Shown here: piece by piece, positions 3,112 through 47,179 of the stretch
Layout of the letters: every line of letters begins with the position of its first letter
How positions within the stretch are numbered: the stretch's first letter is position 1
NCBI RefSeq assembly: GCF_944327175.1
Contig: NZ_CALVGT010000059.1
Span: 1-47,996, forward strand
From: an uncultured Lactobacillus sp.
GTDB taxonomy: Bacteria > Bacillota > Bacilli > Lactobacillales > Lactobacillaceae
Reading direction: 5' to 3'
Length of the DNA stretch: 47,996 nt
The notes under the pieces: generated by a model
Seen by the model: the letters and a program-made list of their open reading frames with translations, nothing else
Databases searched by the model: none
What the model was told of the DNA's origin: nothing
Program-made: the position numbers and the translations under genes

Positions 3112-6100
3112 CTACAGCTTGGTGATGTCGACCAAGGAGATTTTGTTGTCGTGCTTGGCTTCTAAGGCGTGGATCAAGGCACGCGCCGTATCAAGGGAAG
3201 TGTAGATCGGCACTCCGGCTTCTACGGCAAAGCGGCGGATTAAGAAGCCGTCCTTCAAGTTGTTGTTTCTGGTTGGGATGTCGATAACCAGGTCGACCGT
3301 TTCCGTCAAGATCAAGTCAAAGATGGTGTTCTCCTTGTCATTGATCCGGTTGACCAAGCGGGCAGGGATTCCATGACTCTGCAGGAAGTCGTATGTTCCT
3401 TGGGTCGCGTAAAGATCGTAGCCGAAGTCGTGGTATTCCTTGGCGATTGGCAGGAATTCTTCCTTAGCTGAATCCTTGACCGTGCAGATGACCTTCTTGT
3501 GCTTAGGCAGGTCCAGCCCAGTCCCCATAAATGCCTTGTACATGGCTTCTTCAACGTCTTCAGAAATCCCCAGAACTTCACCGGTTGACTTCATTTCCGG
3601 CCCCAAGGCAATTTCCGCCCCGGTAATCTTTTCAAAGGAGAAGACTGGCATCTTGACGGCAACTGTCTTCTTTTCTGGAGCCAGGCCGTAGTCATAGCCT
3701 TGTTCCTTGATGGACTTGCCGATGATGACGTTGGTGGCCACATCAACCAGGGGAATCCCGGTTACCTTGGAGATATAAGGGATGGTTCTGGAGGAGCGGG
3801 GGTTGACTTCGATCACGTAAACTTCATTTTCGTAAACGATAAACTGGATGTTCATCAAGCCCTTGACCTTCAAGGCCTTGGCCAGGCGCTTGGAGTATTC
3901 AACGATCCGTTCTTTCATCTCCTGGGAGATCTTTTGCGGCGGGTAGATGGAGATAGAGTCACCAGAGTGGACACCAGCTCTTTCTACGTGTTCCATGATC
4001 CCAGGAATCAAGATGCCTTCGTCATCGCAGATGGCGTCAACTTCACATTCCTTGCCGGCCAGGTACTTGTCGATCAAAATCGGGTGATCTTCAATGTTGA
4101 ACTGGGATGTAATGTGGTCGATGAAGCGCTTGAGGTCGCCGTCGTTTAAGGCAATTTCCATCCCGGCCCCGCCTAAAACGTAGGAAGGACGAACCAAAAC
4201 CGGGTAACCCAAGTTGCTTGCGGCCTTTAAGGCTTCTTCAGCAGTAAAGACGTTTTGCCCCTTCGGCCGGTCGATCTGGCACTTTTCCAAAATCTCGTCG
4301 AATCTTTCCCGGTCTTCAGCCGCGTCAACACTGTCGGCAGAAGTGCCAAGGATTGGCACGCCCATCTTCATCAAGTCCTGGGAGAGCTTGATGGCGGTTT
4401 GTCCGCCGAATTGGACGATAGCCCCGTCTGGCTTCTCGAGTTCAATGATGCTCTGGACGTCTTCAGCGGTTAAAGGTTCAAAGTAAAGACGGTCGGCGAT
4501 GTCAAAGTCGGTTGAAGCAGTTTCCGGATTGTTGTTAACGATGATGGTTTCGTAGCCAGCTTCCTTCAAGGCCCAGACGCTGTGCACGCAGCAGTAGTCA
4601 AATTCAATCCCTTGCCCGATTCTGATTGGGCCGGAGCCGAAGACGATCACTTTTTTCTTGGACTGGTCTGGCTGGATTTCATGTTCACCGCCATAGACGC
4701 TGTAGAAGTATGGAGTTTCCGCGTCAAACTCAGCCGCACAGGTGTCAACCGTCTTGAAGGCAGCCGTAATCTTCAAGCCCTTTCTGAGGTAGTAGACTTC
4801 ATCAGCCGTTTTGCCAGTCAAGCTGGCGATGACCCGGTCTGGGAATTCGCAGTGCTTGGCCAGTTTCAAAAGGTCTGGGGTCAATTCTTCGCTCTTCAGC
4901 CGGTCTTCAATTTCAACCAGGTGCTTGATCTTGTCGATAAACCAGACATCGATCTTGGTGATGGCGTGAATTTCCCGGATGGAGACACCCTTTCTCAAGG
5001 CTTCAGCGATTCTGAAGGCCCGCTTGTCGTCAATCTTGCGCAGGTCTTTTCGGAGTTCATCGGCTGACAGCTGAGCAATTTCTTCATTATAAAGATAGTA
5101 ACTGTCTTGTTCCAGAGACCGGAGTGCCTTCATGAAGGCACCTTCAAAGTTGTTGCAGATGGCCATGACTTCCCCGGTCGCCTTCATCTGCGTGCCCAGC
5201 TTGCGGGAAGCGTCGTAGAACTTGTCAAAAGGCCACTTAGGAATCTTGCAGACGATGTAGTCAAGAGTCGGTTCGTACGAAGCATAGGTCTTGCCAGTCA
5301 CGGCGTTGACGATTTCGTCCAGGGTATAGCCAAGGGCAATCTTGGTCGCAAGCTTAGCGATAGGGTAGCCGGTTGCTTTTGAAGCCAGGGCAGAAGACCG
5401 GGAAACCCGAGGATTAACTTCAATGACGCAGTATTCAAAGGAGTCTGGGTTAAGGGCAAACTGAACATTGCAGCCGCCCTTGATGTTTAAGGCAGTGATG
5501 ATATTGAGGGCGGAAGACCGGAGCATCTGGTAGTCCTTGTCTGACAAGGTTTGAGATGGTGCAACCACAATACTGTCACCGGTGTGGACGCCGACCGGGT
5601 CCATGTTTTCCATGTTGCAGACGGTGATGCAGTTGCCAGCACCATCGCGCATAACTTCGTATTCAACTTCCTTCCAGCCGGCAATTGATTGTTCAATCAA
5701 ACATTCAGTAACTCGGGAAAGGCGGAGGCCGTTAGAACAGATTTCATGCAGTTCTTGTTCGTTGTGGGCGATCCCGCCGCCAGTACCGCCCAAAGTGTAG
5801 GCCGGGCGGACAACTACTGGGTAGCCGATTTCTTTGGCAAAAGCGATGGCGTCTTCAACGTAGTTGACGACAACTGACTTGGCAACCGGTTCACCGATTC
5901 TTCCCATCAAGTTCTTGAATTCCAGCCGGTCTTCAGCCATCTTGATCGTGTCGGTGTCAGTACCGATCGTCTTGACATGGTGCTTTTCCAAAAAGCCTTC
6001 ATCAGCTAAAGCCATGGCAATGTTCAAGCCATTTTGCCCACCCATGGTTGGCAGGAGGGCGTCCGGCTTTTCCTTTTCTATCAATTGCTTAACGACTGGG

Positions 6101-6312
6101 ACAGTCAAAGGTTCGATGTAGACGTGGTCAGCCATGTCACCGTCAGTCATGATCGTGGCCGGATTGGAGTTGATCAGGACAACTTCGATGCCTTCTTCTC
6201 TGAGGGCCCGGCAGGCCTGGGTACCGGCATAGTCGAATTCAGCGGCTTGGCCGATGATGATCGGGCCGGAACCAATCACTAAAACTTTTTTGATATCGTC
6301 ACGCTTAGGCAT
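3112..6312 (-). CDS. carB: Carbamoyl-phosphate synthase large subunit
   Basis: The 1066-residue ammonia-dependent synthetase makes carbamoyl phosphate from bicarbonate, two ATP and ammonia channelled from CarA, feeding pyrimidine and arginine synthesis. It shows the full two-fold repeat. The N-terminal half (about 1-400) starts MPKRDDIKKVLVIGSGP and has the ATP-grasp signature VRPAYTLGGTGGG. The second half (about 550-930) repeats this with KKVIVFGSGPIRIGQGIEFD and VRPSYVLGGAGME. The last ~130 residues form the MGS-like allosteric domain (DLYATQGTYDFLQSHGIP and later VDLVIDIPTR). Its start overlaps the carA stop by 8 nt, so the two are translationally coupled. Length and motifs are normal and the gene looks intact. 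Both classical effectors, UMP and ornithine, act on the C-terminal domain in this family; which applies here cannot be read from sequence. Confidence 0.97.
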   Translation of the reverse strand: MPKRDDIKKVLVIGSGPIIIGQAAEFDYAGTQACRALREEGIEVVLINSNPATIMTDGDMADHVYIEPLTVPVVKQLIEKEKPDALLPTMGGQNGLNIAMALADEGFLEKHHVKTIGTDTDTIKMAEDRLEFKNLMGRIGEPVAKSVVVNYVEDAIAFAKEIGYPVVVRPAYTLGGTGGGIAHNEQELHEICSNGLRLSRVTECLIEQSIAGWKEVEYEVMRDGAGNCITVCNMENMDPVGVHTGDSIVVAPSQTLSDKDYQMLRSSALNIITALNIKGGCNVQFALNPDSFEYCVIEVNPRVSRSSALASKATGYPIAKLATKIALGYTLDEIVNAVTGKTYASYEPTLDYIVCKIPKWPFDKFYDASRKLGTQMKATGEVMAICNNFEGAFMKALRSLEQDSYYLYNEEIAQLSADELRKDLRKIDDKRAFRIAEALRKGVSIREIHAITKIDVWFIDKIKHLVEIEDRLKSEELTPDLLKLAKHCEFPDRVIASLTGKTADEVYYLRKGLKITAAFKTVDTCAAEFDAETPYFYSVYGGEHEIQPDQSKKKVIVFGSGPIRIGQGIEFDYCCVHSVWALKEAGYETIIVNNNPETASTDFDIADRLYFEPLTAEDVQSIIELEKPDGAIVQFGGQTAIKLSQDLMKMGVPILGTSADSVDAAEDRERFDEILEKCQIDRPKGQNVFTAEEALKAASNLGYPVLVRPSYVLGGAGMEIALNDGDLKRFIDHITSQFNIEDHPILIDKYLAGKECEVDAICDDEGILIPGIMEHVERAGVHSGDSISIYPPQKISQEMKERIVEYSKRLAKALKVKGLMNIQFIVYENEVYVIEVNPRSSRTIPYISKVTGIPLVDVATNVIIGKSIKEQGYDYGLAPEKKTVAVKMPVFSFEKITGAEIALGPEMKSTGEVLGISEDVEEAMYKAFMGTGLDLPKHKKVICTVKDSAKEEFLPIAKEYHDFGYDLYATQGTYDFLQSHGIPARLVNRINDKENTIFDLILTETVDLVIDIPTRNNNLKDGFLIRRFAVEAGVPIYTSLDTARALIHALEAKHDNKISLVDITKL

Positions 6313-7381
6313 TCTTATGTTCTCCCATCATTTCAATAAAGTTGTCAAAGAGGTATTCCGCGTCATGCGGTCCGCCGCAGGCTTCCGGGTGGAACTGGAT
6401 GGACTTGATGTTTTCATTTAAGTATTCCAGGCCTTCGATGGTCTTGTCGTTGACGTTCTTGAACCAAACCTTGGCTTGCTTTGGATCAATTGTGTCTTCC
6501 TTGATCACGTAATTGTGGTTTTGCGTGGAGATGTAAACCCGGCCAGTGGTCAGATCCTTGACTGGGTGGTTGCTGCCGTGGTGGCCGTAGACCATTTTTT
6601 CCGTCTCAAAGCCGTGGGCTAAGGCCAAAAGCTGGTGGCCCAGGCAGATGGCGAAGATCGGGATACTGGAGGAAGCCAGGATCTTCAGCTGGTCAATGAT
6701 TTCCGTGCATTCGCTTGGGTCGCCAGGGCCGTTTGACAGCATGATCCCGTCAAAGTTGTGGTCTATTACATATTGGGCAGGGGTATCAGCCGGCAGGACT
6801 GTGACATGGCATCCTCTTTTAGCTAATTCTCTGGCGATATTGCGCTTGGCACCGAAGTCGTAGAGGGCAACTTCGTAGTCACCTTGACCGACATGGTAGG
6901 GTTCAAGGCAGCTGCATTTTTCAACGACGCCTTGGATCTTGAAGGCCTTGATCTGGTCGATTACTTCACTGACTTTGTAATCTTTAGTGGTAATCATCCC
7001 GTTCATGCAGCCTTCTTTGCGCAGAATCCGGGTGATGGCCCGGGTGTCAACGCCTTGGATGCCAGGTATGTTGTTTTCAATCATGTAGTCGTTCAGACTC
7101 ATGTTCATGCGGAAATTGGATCCCAGCCGGGAAAGCTCGCTTACTACAAAGGCTTCGACAAAGGGGTGGGCGGCTTCCTGGTCATCCAGGGGAACGCCGT
7201 AGTTGCCGATTAGGGGATAGGTCATGACCACGCTTTGGCCAGCATATGACGGGTCGGTCAAGACTTCCACATAACCAGTCATCGCCGTGTTGAAGACGAA
7301 TTCGCTGATAACATCATGGACCGCGCCGAAGCTTTCGCCTTCAAAAACGTGTCCATCTTCCAGTATTAAACGCGCTTTCAT
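6305..7381 (-). CDS. carA: Carbamoyl-phosphate synthase small subunit (glutamine amidotransferase)
   Basis: The 358-residue glutaminase subunit hydrolyses glutamine and passes ammonia to CarB. The N-terminal CPSase domain begins MKARLILEDGHVFEGESFG. The C-terminal class I amidotransferase has the nucleophilic Cys in FAICLGHQLLALAHG and the catalytic His-Glu in IQFHPEACGG. The start at 7381 was chosen because it gives the family's normal N-terminus and follows TAGGAGTC. A longer in-frame reading would run into the terminator hairpin upstream. It is the first gene of carAB, behind the leader and attenuator described separately. It appears intact. Confidence 0.96.
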   Translation of the reverse strand: MKARLILEDGHVFEGESFGAVHDVISEFVFNTAMTGYVEVLTDPSYAGQSVVMTYPLIGNYGVPLDDQEAAHPFVEAFVVSELSRLGSNFRMNMSLNDYMIENNIPGIQGVDTRAITRILRKEGCMNGMITTKDYKVSEVIDQIKAFKIQGVVEKCSCLEPYHVGQGDYEVALYDFGAKRNIARELAKRGCHVTVLPADTPAQYVIDHNFDGIMLSNGPGDPSECTEIIDQLKILASSSIPIFAICLGHQLLALAHGFETEKMVYGHHGSNHPVKDLTTGRVYISTQNHNYVIKEDTIDPKQAKVWFKNVNDKTIEGLEYLNENIKSIQFHPEACGGPHDAEYLFDNFIEMMGEHKNA

Positions 7382-7395
7382 AGATTGTTTGACTC

Positions 7396-7524
7396 CTATA
7401 AAAAAAGACATATCAACGAGTGACATGTCTTAAGTGATGAAATATTAATAATTTGAAAAAATAGAAAAGAAACAGCGAATGAAGCTGGGCAGATATTGGG
7501 ATTAACGTTAATAAATGCGGTCAT
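7396..7524 (-). CDS. carA leader peptide (42 codons)
   Basis: A short ORF starting ATG 16 nt after an AAAGGAAG ribosome binding site and about 28 nt after the predicted transcription start. It begins MTAFINVNPNICP and ends LICLFL. It runs through a very U-rich stretch (about 7451-7476) and the whole terminator hairpin, and its TAG overlaps the carA ribosome binding site (TAGGAG). It has no Arg codon, which argues against arginine-dependent attenuation. Its position fits a leader peptide whose translating ribosome prevents terminator formation, as in enterobacterial pyrBI. Expression is inferred, not shown. Confidence 0.6.
   Translation of the reverse strand: MTAFINVNPNICPASFAVSFLFFQIINISSLKTCHSLICLFL
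7399..7431 (-). promoter_or_regulatory. Attenuator (intrinsic terminator) upstream of carA
   Basis: Read on the minus strand, AAGACATGTCA, a 5-nt loop and TGATATGTCTT form an 11-bp stem (one G-U pair), followed at once by seven T. It sits inside the leader ORF, 18 nt before the carA start, so transcription must pass it to express carAB. A smaller hairpin, CAGC-N7-GCTG, precedes the U-rich stretch and could be a pause hairpin. Confidence 0.8.
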
Positions 7525-7553
7525 TTTGGCTGCTTCCTTTCTGTTTTTTCAAT

Positions 7554-7582
7554 AGTATAAAGGATAGATGCAAGGCTTGCAA
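7554..7582 (-). promoter_or_regulatory. Promoter of leader-carAB
   Basis: On the minus strand TTGCAA, a 17-bp spacer and TATACT. The resulting transcript has only about 28 nt ahead of the leader ORF, which leaves little room for the long PyrR-type leader seen in bacilli. A 12-bp palindrome (ATTAACGTTAAT, 7501-7512) lies within the leader ORF. Confidence 0.75.
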
Positions 7583-7746
7583 GTGGTTTTCTTGATCTTC
7601 ATTAAGAAAGGTGTATATTTTGTATGCATTTTAACAAGATATGGGTAAGAAAACCAAAAGAAGCAGCACATTAGTTGATAATCACGAACATTCAGTTTTC
7701 AGAAAGCAAAAAGATGTACATAATTGAAAATGGAATGGGAAAGTAA
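7583..7746. other. Non-coding gap upstream of carAB
   Basis: AT-rich sequence between the carA promoter and the terminator of the next gene. No gene, repeat or structured RNA is recognised. Confidence 0.4.
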
Positions 7747-30162: not shown

Positions 30163-30404
30163 AAAGAAAAAGCTCCAGATCGCTTTAACAATCTGGAGCC
30201 CGAATAAATTCAAAATTAAATTCTCTCGTCAAATTGCAAGCGCAACGCAGGTACCTTCCCTGCGACAGTCCATGACCTCTTAAGCCATAGCCCAGCCAAT
30301 CCGCCTTGCCAAAACGGATGCTTCGGCAACCTCCCCTTTCTTGCAAGTTCTCCGCCTGGCTGGCTTCCTTGCCTTACTCTTGTCGGTTGCGCCTCTTCAA
30401 TTTG
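30163..30404 (-). ncRNA. Lysine riboswitch (L box) of the dap operon
   Basis: The minus strand carries L-box hallmarks in order: GAAGAGGCGCAACC, AAGAGTAAGGCAAGG, GGGGAGGTTGCCGAAGC, GGATTGGCTGGGCTATGGC and the closing GTTGCGCTTGC. The P1 helix pairs CAAATTG/GCGCAAC with GTTGCGC/CAATTTG (aptamer 30230-30404). The expression platform is a terminator, GCTCCAGAT / ATCTGGAGC (30172-30199), followed by TTTTTCTTT, just ahead of dapD. This is the transcription-termination design: lysine bound means the terminator forms. Confidence 0.92.
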
Positions 30405-30409
30405 TAATC

Positions 30410-41996: not shown

Positions 41997-42731
41997 TTAT
42001 TCTTTGTTTGAATCAACTAACTCTTCTTTGTAGACGTCAATAATTTGAACGGACTTATATTGGAGATAAGAATCCTTCGATTTTACCTCATGGGTATCTG
42101 GATCAAAATCAGCAAATAAGTCGAGCTGTGAATCTTCTGGAACGACTAAGCCATTATCGGTCTGCTCGCCTTCTACAATTGACTCAAAAGTCTGAGTTGT
42201 GCGCTTAACCCAAATCCGACCATCTTGCTTATATGAAGCCCATTCACTGAAAATGATAGGCTGATCATAAACATTCTTATAAGTCAGAGTGTTGCCTTGA
42301 ACCATGTTGGCATAAATGATAGTTTTAGCACTTTTCAAAACCTTACGCTTACCATGTTCTGGTTGTCCCTTTGCCTTGAGTCCTCTAAGATACTCGACTA
42401 CAAAAGTTTGGTACATGTTGTGCCGAAGCATTTTATAGTTATCTTCCATCAGTTCGATGCCGTAAAGAGACGAAAGTGCCGATAGAATTCTATCTTCATA
42501 GTTATCAACTGAAGTACTGCCTTCAAGAGCTACTTGCATCTTACGTGTAAGTAGTTCTGTTAAGAAAGCTCCCTCACCAGCTGCCGGCTCTAAAAAAGTG
42601 GCAGTTAGGTCATTTACTTTAACACTAATTTCCGGTTGATCCAGCATCAGATCAACTATGTTCTTTGGTGTAAATACTTCACCGAAATCCTTGACCCGAT
42701 CTGCTGATTTAATCAATCGTTCATCAGTCAT
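41997..42731 (-). CDS. Restriction-system partner: N6-adenine methyltransferase-like protein without NPPY
   Basis: The 244-residue protein has methyltransferase motif X (FGEVFTPKNIVDLMLDQ) and canonical SAM motif I (TATFLEPAAGEGAFLTELL). The later segment MVQGNTLTYKNVYDQPIIFS ends where FDVIIGNPPY would be expected, and no N/D/S-PP-Y/F motif occurs anywhere. It thus has a good SAM site but no catalytic motif. Its ATG shares one base with the stop of the 1482-residue gene (TAATG), so the two are coupled. It is likely the methyltransferase partner subunit of that enzyme. Function is inferred. Confidence 0.8.
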   Translation of the reverse strand: MTDERLIKSADRVKDFGEVFTPKNIVDLMLDQPEISVKVNDLTATFLEPAAGEGAFLTELLTRKMQVALEGSTSVDNYEDRILSALSSLYGIELMEDNYKMLRHNMYQTFVVEYLRGLKAKGQPEHGKRKVLKSAKTIIYANMVQGNTLTYKNVYDQPIIFSEWASYKQDGRIWVKRTTQTFESIVEGEQTDNGLVVPEDSQLDLFADFDPDTHEVKSKDSYLQYKSVQIIDVYKEELVDSNKE

Positions 42732-45700
42732 TAATCCATTGCCTGCACTTTCGTTTCAATAAAGTTGATTTCGTCCTCAGTGAGATTATATTTCTTGTAT
42801 AGCTGTTGATCAATTTCTGGGATTGACTTTGTCCAGTCAATGTCAGAGTTAAGGGTAAAGTCTTGAAGAGGGACGTACTCCCACTTTGCTCTAGTATTAT
42901 CTTGAGTTGTTTTCAAAACACCTAACATTACTCTAGCAAACTTACCCTTGATATAGTTCAAACAATTTGCAGCTTCGATTTTAGTAGAGAAATCACCAAT
43001 TGAAATAAAGGTTTCAGTCGCCCCGATTAGGGGTTCCCCGATTAGGGGTGTTGTTAAAGTTTCACCTAACGAACCGCTACCATTTGCTTTTGGTACAAAA
43101 ACCTTATAGTGATAAAAGCTATCTGGAACATCTTGATATATCTGCCGACCCCACCAATATTCACGCGTCCTATTAGATAGGCCTAGAAATCTAACATAAT
43201 CATCATGTCCATCACTTGGCTTATCTTTGAAGAAAACTACATCTTTTAGAACTCTGAAGGCACCTGAACCAACGTCTTTTTTGTGTCCCTTCGATTGTAA
43301 TTGTTCTATTTCAGGATGATCTACCAGTGCTTTGTCTGACAACTTATAAACGCCACGCCCAGTTATTATTTCTGACAGAGATCTGCTAATTTTTGGAAGT
43401 GCTTTTTTGAGAATGCCATTTAATTCTGGAAATGCAGTAAAAATTTCAATAGGCTCAAATTCTTGATGCGTATCTCTCAAAGAGACAGCAACTCCACCTT
43501 TTATATCCGTGCGTGGAAAAACTACATCACTCTTTGCTTCATACAAAACAACCTTGAAATGAGGATCATTCAACATCTTCTTATTCCACTGTTTAGATGT
43601 GCCACCTGCATTAAACAAAAATCTAGCAGGTGTAATCAGTGTCACCAAATCAGATAGCTTATATGAGAGATCCATAAAGTCGCTGTAAATCGGTGCAGCA
43701 TAGTTGTCATTATCACCTGTTGCAGAATCTTGATATGGCGGATTACCGATTACGACGTCGAATTTCATGTTTCCAAATAGCCCCTCAATCTTTTTAGCTT
43801 CAGCATCAACGTCGGTCTTGGCGTCCTTAATAATATTCTCGACGTATTCCGCGTTAACATCCCAATCCGCATTATATCCTCTAAGAGTCCGAATCGCGAT
43901 TTCCTTTGCCATCGGCGTCTTCGCCACAACAAAGATGTTTTCCCGCAGAATCTTCTGCCAAATGAACTGCTCGTCGATCAAACTAAACTTACCAGCCGTC
44001 TGATCATTCATCTTCTGGAATTCCTTCCAGTACAGGGATGCAGCCGCAAACAACGGATAAAGCCCGGTCTTGGCGTTGATTTCTAAAATACGGGTATTCT
44101 CATGATAAACCCGCTCTGTATCTTCAGATGATACCCAGTGCATCGCAGATTTACCATCAACATACTGGGTCTCATAATCGTCGTCATAATAGACAAGTCC
44201 GCCTATCGTCTTACCCAAATGCATGTTAACTACGCGCCATGGCGTAAGCACGGTTTCCTTATCAGGATTTCTAAAAGTCCCGAAAATATCCGCGATCTTC
44301 TCAACCCGGTCAAGCGGATCAGCCTTATCGATCTCTTTTACTCGTCTTCTGATGATCTTCCCAGCTTCAATGAAGATCTCCGAATCGTAGTACGGGATAA
44401 ACTGCTTGAACATTTCCTTCGTGACGCCAGCAGGCATGAATTCTTTCCAAGATACGTCGTCAACCCGGTTCATGAATTGCTGAATTGACACGTCTTCATC
44501 AAAGTCGATGTCCATCCCGTAGATCATCATTGGTATTCTAATCGAAATACCACGCAAAATCGAGATCAAAGCTCGCCGCTGGCGCTTAAGAGCATTAACC
44601 TTGTCGAGAGCTTCTTGCTCTTCTTTGGTACGCTCTCTTGGCTTTTTCTTCTTGGCCTTTCTTGCAGTCTCTGACTCTTTGTCTGTCAACCCTTGCTTGT
44701 TGATGTCAATCTTTGTCTCTTGCTTTTCTTTCTTGGTCGTCCCAACAATTGCCTTCAGCTTGTTGAACTTATCAAGAATGTCTTGACTCTCAATATTCAA
44801 GAGCTTGTCTGAGTAGATAGAATTATCATCAAAACCAGAGCGAACCGCTCTTTCTGCGTAAGCCTTCTTGAGCTTGGTGAGCAGCATGTTTACGTTGTAG
44901 ACGTGCATCTTATTGCCCTTCTCACCGATTATCGGCAAGAAGTTGAGCAACTTGGTCATCCGCTCTTCCTGTTCATCGCTATTCAGCTTACCAGCCCCCG
45001 TCGACAAACTGCTTGCTTCGGCCATAACTGTCAAAGCCCGGTCTGGCGCAAAGTCGAAAATGTAGCAGTTGGTTTTCTGACCGAAAGTCTCTGACGCGTA
45101 TGGCGTCTGTGCTCTAAAGGCAGCCTGCAGATATTGCATGGCACTGTTGGTGTTTGACAAGAACAAGACACCAGTCCAAGGCTTAATCGTTACCCCAGTG
45201 GTCATCTTCCGCACTGTTAAGGTAATCGTCTTAGTTGTTGCTGGATCTGGATCCATCGCCCGGTTAACACGTTCTACATCGCTTTGACTGGCTTCTTCAT
45301 CAGCTGTCTTGTCTCCGCGAACCACGTTAACTACTTTGTATCCTTCTTCGTGGAAAACTGTGCCTGGTTCATTAAGCAGGTCTTCCAAGGCGTTACATTC
45401 TTTAATCCCTGGCAAAATCCATAAAGTATGCCGCAAGTTGTTCCGGAAAGATCGGTTGGCAAATGGATAATTTGTTGGACCAGGTGAAGTAATGTTCTTT
45501 AAGAACTGGCGAACATTCTTCTCATGCACGAACTTACCATTCTCATCAGTCCGGAAGAACTCCTTGAAGTTAAATGAGTATCTCCCTAAGCCATCCCCGG
45601 TAAAGTTGATGTCCTTGAAATGGTCACTCATCTCAAAGGTGTACATGGAAACCTTTGGCAGACTCTCGTATGGGTTGATTTCATTCGGGTGTTCTTCTGA

Positions 45701-47179
45701 CCAGGCAAGCTTAGCTTCCTGCTCCATGGTGTAGTCCCAAGTGAAAATCTGCTCTTCGTCATAGTCGGAAAGCAGGTTGAACGGAGTGCCAGACAATTCC
45801 AAGAGCTTGGTAGTCCGTTTGTTTCTTAATACAGCATCTAGGACATTTTGTGCCAGGTCAGTCTGCGTCCCTTCGTGGGCTTCATCAACAATAACCAAGT
45901 CCCAGGCAACTGAGAAAACATCATGGTTCTTGTCACTGACCTTGCCGCCGATTTCCGTTGACCCCCGCAGGTCCTGAATGGAAGCAAAGTAAACGTATGG
46001 CTGGTCTAAGTTTTCCAGTTCCTCAACTGATCTGTGGCCCCGGTTTCTAGAGCCATAGAGATAGCCAACCTTGGTCATGCCAATCTTGTTAAAGTCTTCA
46101 AACCAGCCCTCGTTGACCACCGGCCGGTGAGTCATAATAAGGACCTTCTTGTACTTAGACTCTTTAACCAAGCTCAAAGCAGTGATGGTCTTACCAAAGC
46201 GCATCTTTGCGTTCCAAAGCATACGGTTGTAGTGCTTGTATGCGGCCTTGGTCTTGTCGATTGCATCCCTCTGCTCTGGTCTAAGAGTGATCTTAACCTC
46301 AATTGGTTTTTGCTGCTTAGGAACTTGGTTATCCAGCTCAATGGCACTCTTGCCGTCTTTAACCGCCTGAATCGCCTTTTTCGCAGTTTCAAGATCGACC
46401 GTGTACCACTCATTGCCTTCCAGTCCTTCAGCGTGCTTTATACCAGACCGTTCTAAGACATCATGAACTGCCTCATCACCAAACCATCTTTTGGTAACTG
46501 GTGAGTAGCCCAATTCAGCCCATTCAATGACGTATGGTACACCACCTGTTCCCATGTACTGCTTAACTCGCTTATCAGCACGAATACGCAGATAATCACT
46601 ATTAGGTCTTAAGTCATTGTTAAAGTCTTCTTCAATAGATGCCTTGCCAACTTTTCGTGCCCCAATATAGGCTGGCCAATTTCCACTTGAATTATCAGCA
46701 GTTTGAATGTAAACCAGTCTTCTCTCAGAAGAAGAGTAATTAGTTTCTCTTTCCGGCTCAATAAACTCATCTGAACTGGTATTGACATGGATGTCGTAAT
46801 ATTTGTGGGCAAAATCAGCGAGCAGGTAGCGAATGTTTTTCAGCTCTTTTAAGCCGCTTTCTTTAGTGGCCGTTTCTTTCAAAGCATGTGCTTGAACATT
46901 CCCACTGCGCTTAACTTCGTAAAAGGCGCTAATAGCCTGGTCAGTCACATAGGCACCCTTCCGCAAGCGAGTCAAATTATCGTTAAAAGTCGCGCGCTCG
47001 TCAACCTGCAAGTATTCCAAATCCATGATGTCTTTAGTAAGCTCTTCCGCGATCTTTCTAACGTTGATCACTTCTTCAGAATAGTATCCATCTGCATACA
47101 GCCTTTCAGCATTTACTGCATTGGCATAATACTTTTGGAGATCATCCTCATTTTTTAAAAATTCGAAATTACTCTTCAT
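42731..47179 (-). CDS. Restriction-modification enzyme: nuclease-like, helicase, N6-adenine methyltransferase in one chain
   Basis: 1482 residues. Order: about 10-130, DUF4145/HEPN-like helices (EVKRSGNVQAHALKE); about 150-275, a T5orf172/GIY-YIG-like region (YIGARKVGKASIEEDF, then EAVHDVLERSG, NEWYTVDL); 295-710, SF2 helicase with NAKMRFGKTITALS, VIVDEAHEGT, LELSGTPFN and a motif VI region MQYLQAAFRAQTPY; 970-1150, methyltransferase with motif X (TVLTPWRVVNMHL), a degenerate motif I (ILEINAKTGLYPLF) and catalytic FDVVIGNPPYQ; about 1200-1482, probable target recognition. This resembles single-chain Type I-like enzymes but with GIY-YIG-type in place of Mrr nuclease. Lower GC than neighbours suggests horizontal transfer. 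Partner gene at 41997. Confidence 0.88.
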   Translation of the reverse strand: MKSNFEFLKNEDDLQKYYANAVNAERLYADGYYSEEVINVRKIAEELTKDIMDLEYLQVDERATFNDNLTRLRKGAYVTDQAISAFYEVKRSGNVQAHALKETATKESGLKELKNIRYLLADFAHKYYDIHVNTSSDEFIEPERETNYSSSERRLVYIQTADNSSGNWPAYIGARKVGKASIEEDFNNDLRPNSDYLRIRADKRVKQYMGTGGVPYVIEWAELGYSPVTKRWFGDEAVHDVLERSGIKHAEGLEGNEWYTVDLETAKKAIQAVKDGKSAIELDNQVPKQQKPIEVKITLRPEQRDAIDKTKAAYKHYNRMLWNAKMRFGKTITALSLVKESKYKKVLIMTHRPVVNEGWFEDFNKIGMTKVGYLYGSRNRGHRSVEELENLDQPYVYFASIQDLRGSTEIGGKVSDKNHDVFSVAWDLVIVDEAHEGTQTDLAQNVLDAVLRNKRTTKLLELSGTPFNLLSDYDEEQIFTWDYTMEQEAKLAWSEEHPNEINPYESLPKVSMYTFEMSDHFKDINFTGDGLGRYSFNFKEFFRTDENGKFVHEKNVRQFLKNITSPGPTNYPFANRSFRNNLRHTLWILPGIKECNALEDLLNEPGTVFHEEGYKVVNVVRGDKTADEEASQSDVERVNRAMDPDPATTKTITLTVRKMTTGVTIKPWTGVLFLSNTNSAMQYLQAAFRAQTPYASETFGQKTNCYIFDFAPDRALTVMAEASSLSTGAGKLNSDEQEERMTKLLNFLPIIGEKGNKMHVYNVNMLLTKLKKAYAERAVRSGFDDNSIYSDKLLNIESQDILDKFNKLKAIVGTTKKEKQETKIDINKQGLTDKESETARKAKKKKPRERTKEEQEALDKVNALKRQRRALISILRGISIRIPMMIYGMDIDFDEDVSIQQFMNRVDDVSWKEFMPAGVTKEMFKQFIPYYDSEIFIEAGKIIRRRVKEIDKADPLDRVEKIADIFGTFRNPDKETVLTPWRVVNMHLGKTIGGLVYYDDDYETQYVDGKSAMHWVSSEDTERVYHENTRILEINAKTGLYPLFAAASLYWKEFQKMNDQTAGKFSLIDEQFIWQKILRENIFVVAKTPMAKEIAIRTLRGYNADWDVNAEYVENIIKDAKTDVDAEAKKIEGLFGNMKFDVVIGNPPYQDSATGDNDNYAAPIYSDFMDLSYKLSDLVTLITPARFLFNAGGTSKQWNKKMLNDPHFKVVLYEAKSDVVFPRTDIKGGVAVSLRDTHQEFEPIEIFTAFPELNGILKKALPKISRSLSEIITGRGVYKLSDKALVDHPEIEQLQSKGHKKDVGSGAFRVLKDVVFFKDKPSDGHDDYVRFLGLSNRTREYWWGRQIYQDVPDSFYHYKVFVPKANGSGSLGETLTTPLIGEPLIGATETFISIGDFSTKIEAANCLNYIKGKFARVMLGVLKTTQDNTRAKWEYVPLQDFTLNSDIDWTKSIPEIDQQLYKKYNLTEDEINFIETKVQAMD

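Follow-up and report, generated by a model that had tools for sequence, protein, structure and literature searches.

The carAB operon of an uncultured Lactobacillus is preceded by a leader that is best explained as a ribosome-coupled, UTP-sensing transcription attenuator with a kinetic lock on the Shine-Dalgarno sequence (SD) of its leader ORF, and we consider this reading likely. Sequence comparison makes it very probable that the leader is a conserved RNA device acting as a ribosome-coupled attenuator; UTP is the probable signal. The operon lies in the window, the whole stretch of 47,996 nucleotides analysed here, from a genome of 1.72 Mb (assembly 96% complete).

Results

The leader upstream of carA

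The leader and the genes behind it are composed of the following elements, with positions in the window.

7577..7582, minus strand: -35 box TTGCAA; similar boxes in relatives
7554..7559, minus strand: -10 box TATACT, 17-nt spacer from the -35 box; TATACT in most relatives displayed
7529..7547, minus strand: 5' arm of the SD-sealing helix; pairing species-specific
7533..7542, minus strand: SD of the leader ORF, AGAAAGGAAG, within the 5' arm
7396..7524, minus strand: leader ORF, 42 codons, passing through the terminator to the carA SD
7456..7476, minus strand: 3' arm of the helix, the U-rich anti-SD, GCUGUUUCUUUUCUAUUUUUU
7432..7476, minus strand: U-rich tract (58% U) leading up to the terminator, the proposed UTP-sensitive pause zone
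7400..7431, minus strand: intrinsic terminator, 11-bp stem at 7405-7431 plus T-run
6305..7381, minus strand: carA, carbamoyl phosphate synthase small subunit (NCBIfam PRK12838, 546 bits, cut-off 221)
3112..6312, minus strand: ORF overlapping the carA end, which from its sequence we take to be carB, the large subunit

Much of this had been read from the DNA by the initial annotation. The promoter TTGCAA-N17-TATACT is found at 7582-7554 (-). The 42-codon ORF with a ribosome site (7524-7396, -) does end in a TAG overlapping the SD of carA, whose ATG is at 7381-7379 (-); the 11-bp terminator (stem 7431-7405) lies inside that ORF with its seven T, two of them within the stem; and the window leader holds no Arg codon, as had been claimed. 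The annotation had also described a small hairpin followed by a U-rich tract. The tract stands, but what was read as a small hairpin is a long helix pairing the SD with the tract. This SD-sealing helix, the likely horizontal origin of the genes, and the sub-threshold PyrR matches at pyrB and a permease rather than at carAB had been overlooked.

The promoter match by itself is not above chance (4 in the region against 2.5 expected); it is taken as real because it is conserved in relatives, and a transcript start is predicted near 7547. Single-genome features of this kind, such as a promoter score near chance, would suit a constitutive leader, in which a terminator and a chance small ORF stand before carA without any regulation. 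This is extremely unlikely, as frame, stop position and SD pairing are conserved in three gene sets despite sequence divergence.

The window genome also carries a second, divergent carA/carB-like pair (G000:C53:16396-20642; L265 6397-10643), whose large subunit starts GAGSALVGN, while the usual ones start GSGPIIIGQ. The Rfam search returned no family near the gathering score at 7300-7700, and elsewhere in the window the lysine riboswitch alone (89 bits, 30229-30405, -), with an ORF downstream of it that resembles a lysine/diaminopimelate pathway gene. At 41997-47179 (-), large neighbouring ORFs resemble a helicase/DNA methyltransferase fusion (DEAH and NPPY motifs); together with a further methyltransferase-like protein there, they are perhaps a restriction system.

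Origin of carA

The carAB genes look foreign, and sequence comparison suggests that the leader was apparently brought in with them from gut bacteria of the order Erysipelotrichales, the order of Kandleria, called the donor order below. The closest named carA is that of L. delbrueckii subsp. delbrueckii (97%), and the window therefore probably comes from this species or a close relative. Next, in the donor order, are Kandleria vitulina (81%), Sharpea and Eggerthia (75-76%), and Massilimicrobiota, Thomasclavelia and Stoquefichus (70-73%). The nearest carA of other Lactobacillus having one is 40-46% identical, and a second type in the genus about 30%. In a tree of 56 proteins, the three L. delbrueckii-group rows nest inside the Kandleria-order clade and share a 96%-support fork with Kandleria and two relatives; a constraint uniting all Lactobacillus carA was rejected (p 0.012). 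This is a quick tree, for which the Lactobacillus and 'other' rows were thinned and L117 and six 'other' loci left out.

Within the genus, a DNA search found the leader in 3 of 75 genomes, namely the window genome, L. nasalidis and L. delbrueckii DSM 20074, with the DSM 20074 match in two pieces and four genomes with short matches excluded; the leader model found it in 2 of 75. In DSM 20074, the carA leader is split across two contig ends inside the terminator (L084 1-240, L003 1-125). At each contig end the leader passes into sequence that has a GGGGGTCA-type end and resembles an insertion element in the attenuator; such an element may relieve attenuation in that strain.

Distribution of the leader

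Among 294 genomes of the donor order, 40 carA are at least 63% identical to that of the window, and in 36 of these 40 loci a script detected the -10 box, SD, ORF and terminator. The same layout was seen by eye in L130, while L129 is degenerate and L128 and L131 are without a leader. The initial annotation had let its reading depend on conservation of the leader ORF across relatives; this holds in 36/40 Erysipelotrichales carA and in L. nasalidis, but not in other Lactobacillus, where the nearest carA is a different gene.

A leader model built on 25 of the carA leaders and run against 315 genomes of the order gave 66 matches, spread over 42 genomes. Of these matches, 37 lie at carA. The other 29, in 29 genomes, each directly precede a carB-like gene with no carA in between (L236-L264). 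Among these carB-like genes, the frame of L238 is broken near the start, that of L260 is open over a short distance, and L252 is truncated by the end of its contig. The leader ORF reaches the terminator in 29/29 carB-like loci; as these were found by a model of carA leaders, their layout is partly built in. Two loci viewed more widely, L267 and L268, have a carB-like gene without an adjoining carA, and L268 also has carAB.

A class-wide sample of 395 genomes gave one further real case, before a probable uracil permease (NCBIfam uracil permease 269 bits, cut-off 477; NCS2 264 bits, cut-off 292). In the family of that genome, another family of Bacilli, the permease is present at E up to 1e-60 in 8 of 18 genomes. 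In all eight permease loci (L280-L287; L286 used in the layout reading only), a U-rich run-up leads to a terminator, and a leader ORF stops at this terminator or inside it. Of the 14 other frames scored in this set, 3 likewise get past the stem or as close as 15 nt to it. Seven of the eight were found by protein and are thus independent of the leader model, and their terminator stems differ from those of most car leaders.

Since the model search scored about 10 candidates per genome (44 in the genus), absence elsewhere weighs little. Two of the three class-wide matches in new genomes (L272, L273) look like chance, as do the model matches L275-L279 (E 0.02-0.04). By eye, the leader was seen in 0 of 14 parsed donor-order pyrB loci (of 27). 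Most of the 30 distant Erysipelotrichales carA read (of 75; 45-53% identical) stand directly behind another gene and are leaderless. Three distant loci, L154, L155 and L156, have their own leader ORF ending at a terminator; the L156 leader, with three Arg codons and no U-tract, is perhaps an arginine-type relative.

Frame, stop and codon content of the leader ORF

The frame tests used 37 nonredundant car leaders, 25 from carA and 12 from the carB set. All 37 keep frame 0 open until at most 15 nt remain to the stem; frame +1 is open that far in 7/37 and frame +2 in 8/37, and shuffles would leave 9.8 of 37 open. The first stop falls at most 7 nt before the stem in 27 leaders in frame 0, and in 1 and 2 leaders in the other frames. 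The limit for reaching the terminator was 12 or 15 nt, depending on the test. The start was taken as the ATG behind an SD whose ORF nears the terminator; every kept leader had one and five starts were reset by hand, and this rule, by demanding such an ORF, is biased towards the result.

Stop position was scored in 38 carA leaders (36 from the donor order, the window and L. nasalidis). Five of the 43 carA leaders (40 donor order, 3 Lactobacillus) were excluded, namely L053, where the contig ends inside the leader, L130, where the script wrongly located the terminator, L128, L129 and L131. The terminator lies 64-93 nt after the ATG in the 38, and the stop codon starts 1-10 nt before the stem in 29 of them. 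In the remaining 9, the window included, the ORF enters or crosses the terminator; the L. nasalidis ORF ends 6 nt before the stem. These leaders have the make-up of the pyrBI type: their ORF reaches the terminator (37/37), this terminator is intrinsic and precedes a pyrimidine gene, and a U-rich tract lies shortly upstream of it. The control of carAB by coupled transcription and translation that the initial annotation had suggested gains support from this conserved layout of ORF, U-tract and terminator, and is kept here as a proposal.

A Phe- and Tyr-rich leader peptide (108 Phe and 41 Tyr among 444 codons near the leader end) is also what classical amino-acid attenuation would have, with ribosomes stalling at Phe, Tyr or, for the arginine branch, Arg codons. 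This reading is highly improbable, because the same nucleotides are read in different frames: a CUCAUUUUU-like U-tract anchor occurs in 26 of 37 leaders, and the three frames are used 11, 10 and 5 times. Reading in all three frames means that the RNA is conserved and the peptide is not. Moreover, the 37 car leaders have no in-frame conserved codon run, Arg accounts for 5 of the 444 codons, and carAB lies outside Phe/Tyr synthesis.

The U-rich tract as anti-SD

The window leader folds at -34.6 kcal/mol against a shuffle mean of -17.6 (z -5.6; 0 of 200 shuffles as good), a score that takes in both the long helix and the terminator. In the long helix AAAACAGAAAGGAAGCAGC, which contains the SD, pairs with the anti-SD arm of the U-rich tract. 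Since the main helix joins these two regions, the tract is predicted to be the anti-SD of the leader ORF. RNAalifold on alignment A1 recovered the terminator alone; it missed the helix because the U-tracts are misaligned in A1, hence a swap test was used, with the SD region and the 55 nt upstream of the terminator as partners.

In the 25 carA leaders, the SD/U-tract duplex has a mean of -14.6 kcal/mol within species and -11.8 kcal/mol when swapped, and 0 of 100,000 species reassignments reach the native mean, also with the window left out. Native pairing is better than the median of its own swaps in 24 of 25, and the helix contains the SD in all 25. For the carB set, 37 of 100,000 reassignments are as good; for the permease leaders, where the partner could lie anywhere in nearly the whole ORF, 3 of 5,040. 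Taken singly, only 11 of 25 leaders pass the 5% level against shuffles of their own tract (before five starts were reset; L097 and L101 are the worst), which weighs against the SD-lock model.

Folding of the growing RNA gives an SD that is 0.72 unpaired before the tract emerges and 0.12 after, with a drop in 36 of 37 leaders. Once the tract is out, 33 of 37 leaders have a less open SD than with a shuffled tract (27%); the other four shut the SD no better than with a shuffled tract, which counts against the model. For the window, with the start site inferred and 12 nt assumed to be hidden in RNA polymerase (RNAP), the SD is predicted to be 0.3-0.7 open at about +35 to +90, and this only partial opening also counts against the model. 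Its opening is 0.33 with RNAP at +90 and 0.01 at +95; thus the SD is predicted to shut as RNAP crosses the end of the U-run (+87 to +92).

The gate on the SD could also respond to an input other than UTP, such as a protein, another RNA or general translation capacity. Indeed, SD complementarity is the most sharply matched element, and the uridines of the 3' arm are explicable by pairing alone. The 5' UTR is 51% A and 34% G (25 carA leaders). The arm is U-rich in part because it must pair with a purine-rich SD. The terminator stem could further be a recognition site. Its ACATATC/GATATGT is nearly invariant in the car leaders (L092-L127), beyond the need of a bare terminator, and the SD-lock model leaves this unexplained. 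Against such an input, L117, the exception among the car leaders, and the permease set have other stem sequences, and the target genes indicate pyrimidines. The U excess also goes beyond the arm. The 40 nt upstream of the terminator contain 55.7% U and 21.8% A, with U above A in 25/25 carA leaders; U stays at 62-69% from -25 to the terminator, and the helix ends at least 10 nt earlier in 16 of 25, so the excess is not merely the arm. We therefore regard a signal other than UTP as unlikely.

PyrR and the arginine question

The window genome encodes PyrR (247 bits, cut-off 138) and has two PyrR-site matches, neither of which reaches the gathering score; one precedes pyrB, the other a permease resembling a uracil permease. 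These would speak for PyrR-dependent attenuation of the usual lactobacillus kind at carA too, but RF00515 gave no match there at E up to 0.001 in the genome or E up to 10 in the leader, and the PyrR binding-loop consensus has no leader match within 3 mismatches. The PyrR loop, which the initial annotation had not seen either, was thus not found by these searches. PyrR is present in 3/3 Lactobacillus genomes tested, but above cut-off in only 1 of 40 genomes of the donor order (best match of the others at most 51 bits), and RF00515 was unmatched in 7/7 donor genomes tested, with 150 of 179-285 candidates scored per genome. Neither the site searches of the carA leader nor the protein matches of the donor order thus fit a PyrR regulon, and under the proposed mechanism the device would act independently of PyrR. 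We give PyrR control of carA very little credence; the window genome probably uses PyrR for its other pyrimidine genes, beside the carAB leader.

Carbamoyl phosphate also supplies arginine. The transcarbamylase search of the window genome found pyrB only and no second transcarbamylase (assembly 96% complete), so carbamoyl phosphate would go to pyrimidines only, unless the missing part contains an ornithine enzyme. Two related genomes show a second, weaker transcarbamylase match, as do most genomes of the donor order, where the genes may also serve arginine. Pyrimidine supply is the common theme of the leader's targets, which are carA, carB-like genes and a probable uracil permease. A regulon reconstruction in lactic acid bacteria, as far as the excerpt of PMC3616900 goes, places Lactobacillaceae carAB in the ArgR regulon.

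Discussion

We propose the following mechanism. RNAP would make a short leader in which the SD is open at first. The U-rich stretch would then have two roles, slowing RNAP under UTP shortage and, after its emergence, pairing with the SD. When UTP is plentiful, the tract would be made fast, the SD sealed before a ribosome loads, the terminator formed and carAB kept off. With scarce UTP, RNAP would linger in the tract, allowing a ribosome to load and trail closely; this ribosome, at the foot of the terminator, would prevent the hairpin from folding, and carAB would be transcribed. The tract that is slow to synthesise without UTP would thus be the tract that closes the SD, and this would make the lock. 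Comparison of the leaders shows the SD, the ORF open to the terminator with its stop at or in it, the U-tract and the SD/U-tract complementarity; UTP as signal, RNAP pausing in the tract, ribosome loading and prevention of termination by translation are steps that we infer.

The geometry is compatible with such a race. With the terminator 64-93 nt from the ATG and the stop at its foot in 29 leaders, an undelayed polymerase should win; a delay in the U-tract should let the ribosome win. In E. coli, an excerpt of PMC4824070 describes a terminator several bp behind a gene as almost completely repressed, and one within the first 100 bp of a coding region as able to work efficiently.

Several known systems share parts of this layout. 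The E. coli pyrBI leader (pyrL) likewise has a leader ORF over a U-rich stretch, a terminator and a pyrimidine target, and excerpts of PMC3641672 and PMC5021804 state that tight ribosome-RNAP coupling is required there, as we suppose for carAB. The leader described here belongs to a different phylum, stands before carA, carB and a probable uracil permease, and is like pyrBI in layout. In contrast to pyrBI, its U-rich tract doubles as anti-SD of the leader ORF, and most of its ORFs end at the terminator foot. The pyrBI leader is not known to have such an SD lock.

The PyrR leaders (RF00515) also place a terminator before Gram-positive pyrimidine genes and have sub-threshold matches elsewhere in the window genome, whereas the carA leader is without a detected PyrR site. 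In the start-switch of E. coli pyrC/pyrD, a pyrimidine-dependent hairpin hides an SD, and a similar dependence would apply here. In pyrC/pyrD the hidden SD belongs to the gene itself and the start site is what switches; in the carA leader the SD of a leader ORF is hidden and the output is termination. The B. subtilis pyrG attenuator is repressor-free, nucleotide-sensing and Gram-positive, as the present leader would be, and adds G residues at the start site (PMC4448216, in excerpt). A-runs occur near the presumed start in the window and Kandleria; the other leaders, whose start positions are likewise estimated, show no shared homopolymer. The carA (SRC-12-1) motif of betaproteobacteria, named for its place upstream of carA, is an extended imperfect hairpin found mostly in Polynucleobacter, with no leader ORF or terminator described in the excerpt of PMC8632094.

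With moderate confidence, we propose that these leaders form a so far undescribed, PyrR-independent class of pyrimidine sensors in Bacilli, in which the U-tract would be both pause zone and anti-SD, a one-way lock through which the speed of U incorporation would determine if a ribosome is able to load. The class would control carAB, further carB genes and a uracil permease, have arisen or spread in at least two families, and have moved with carAB into L. delbrueckii and L. nasalidis, beside PyrR. In the open-licence literature, no earlier report of the leader was recognised from titles and the beginnings of abstracts, and the excerpts of PMC6429828 and PMC12820379 hold nothing bearing on the carAB leader.

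If true, this adds a further route of pyrimidine control in genomes that mostly have no PyrR above the cut-off. Pyrimidine control in low-GC Gram-positive bacteria is usually told as PyrR plus pyrG-type initiation. The SD lock would offer a simple way to probe the strength of coupling between transcription and translation in these bacteria. Furthermore, a gene and its cis-regulator seem to have moved jointly into a host that keeps a different regulator for the other genes of the pathway.
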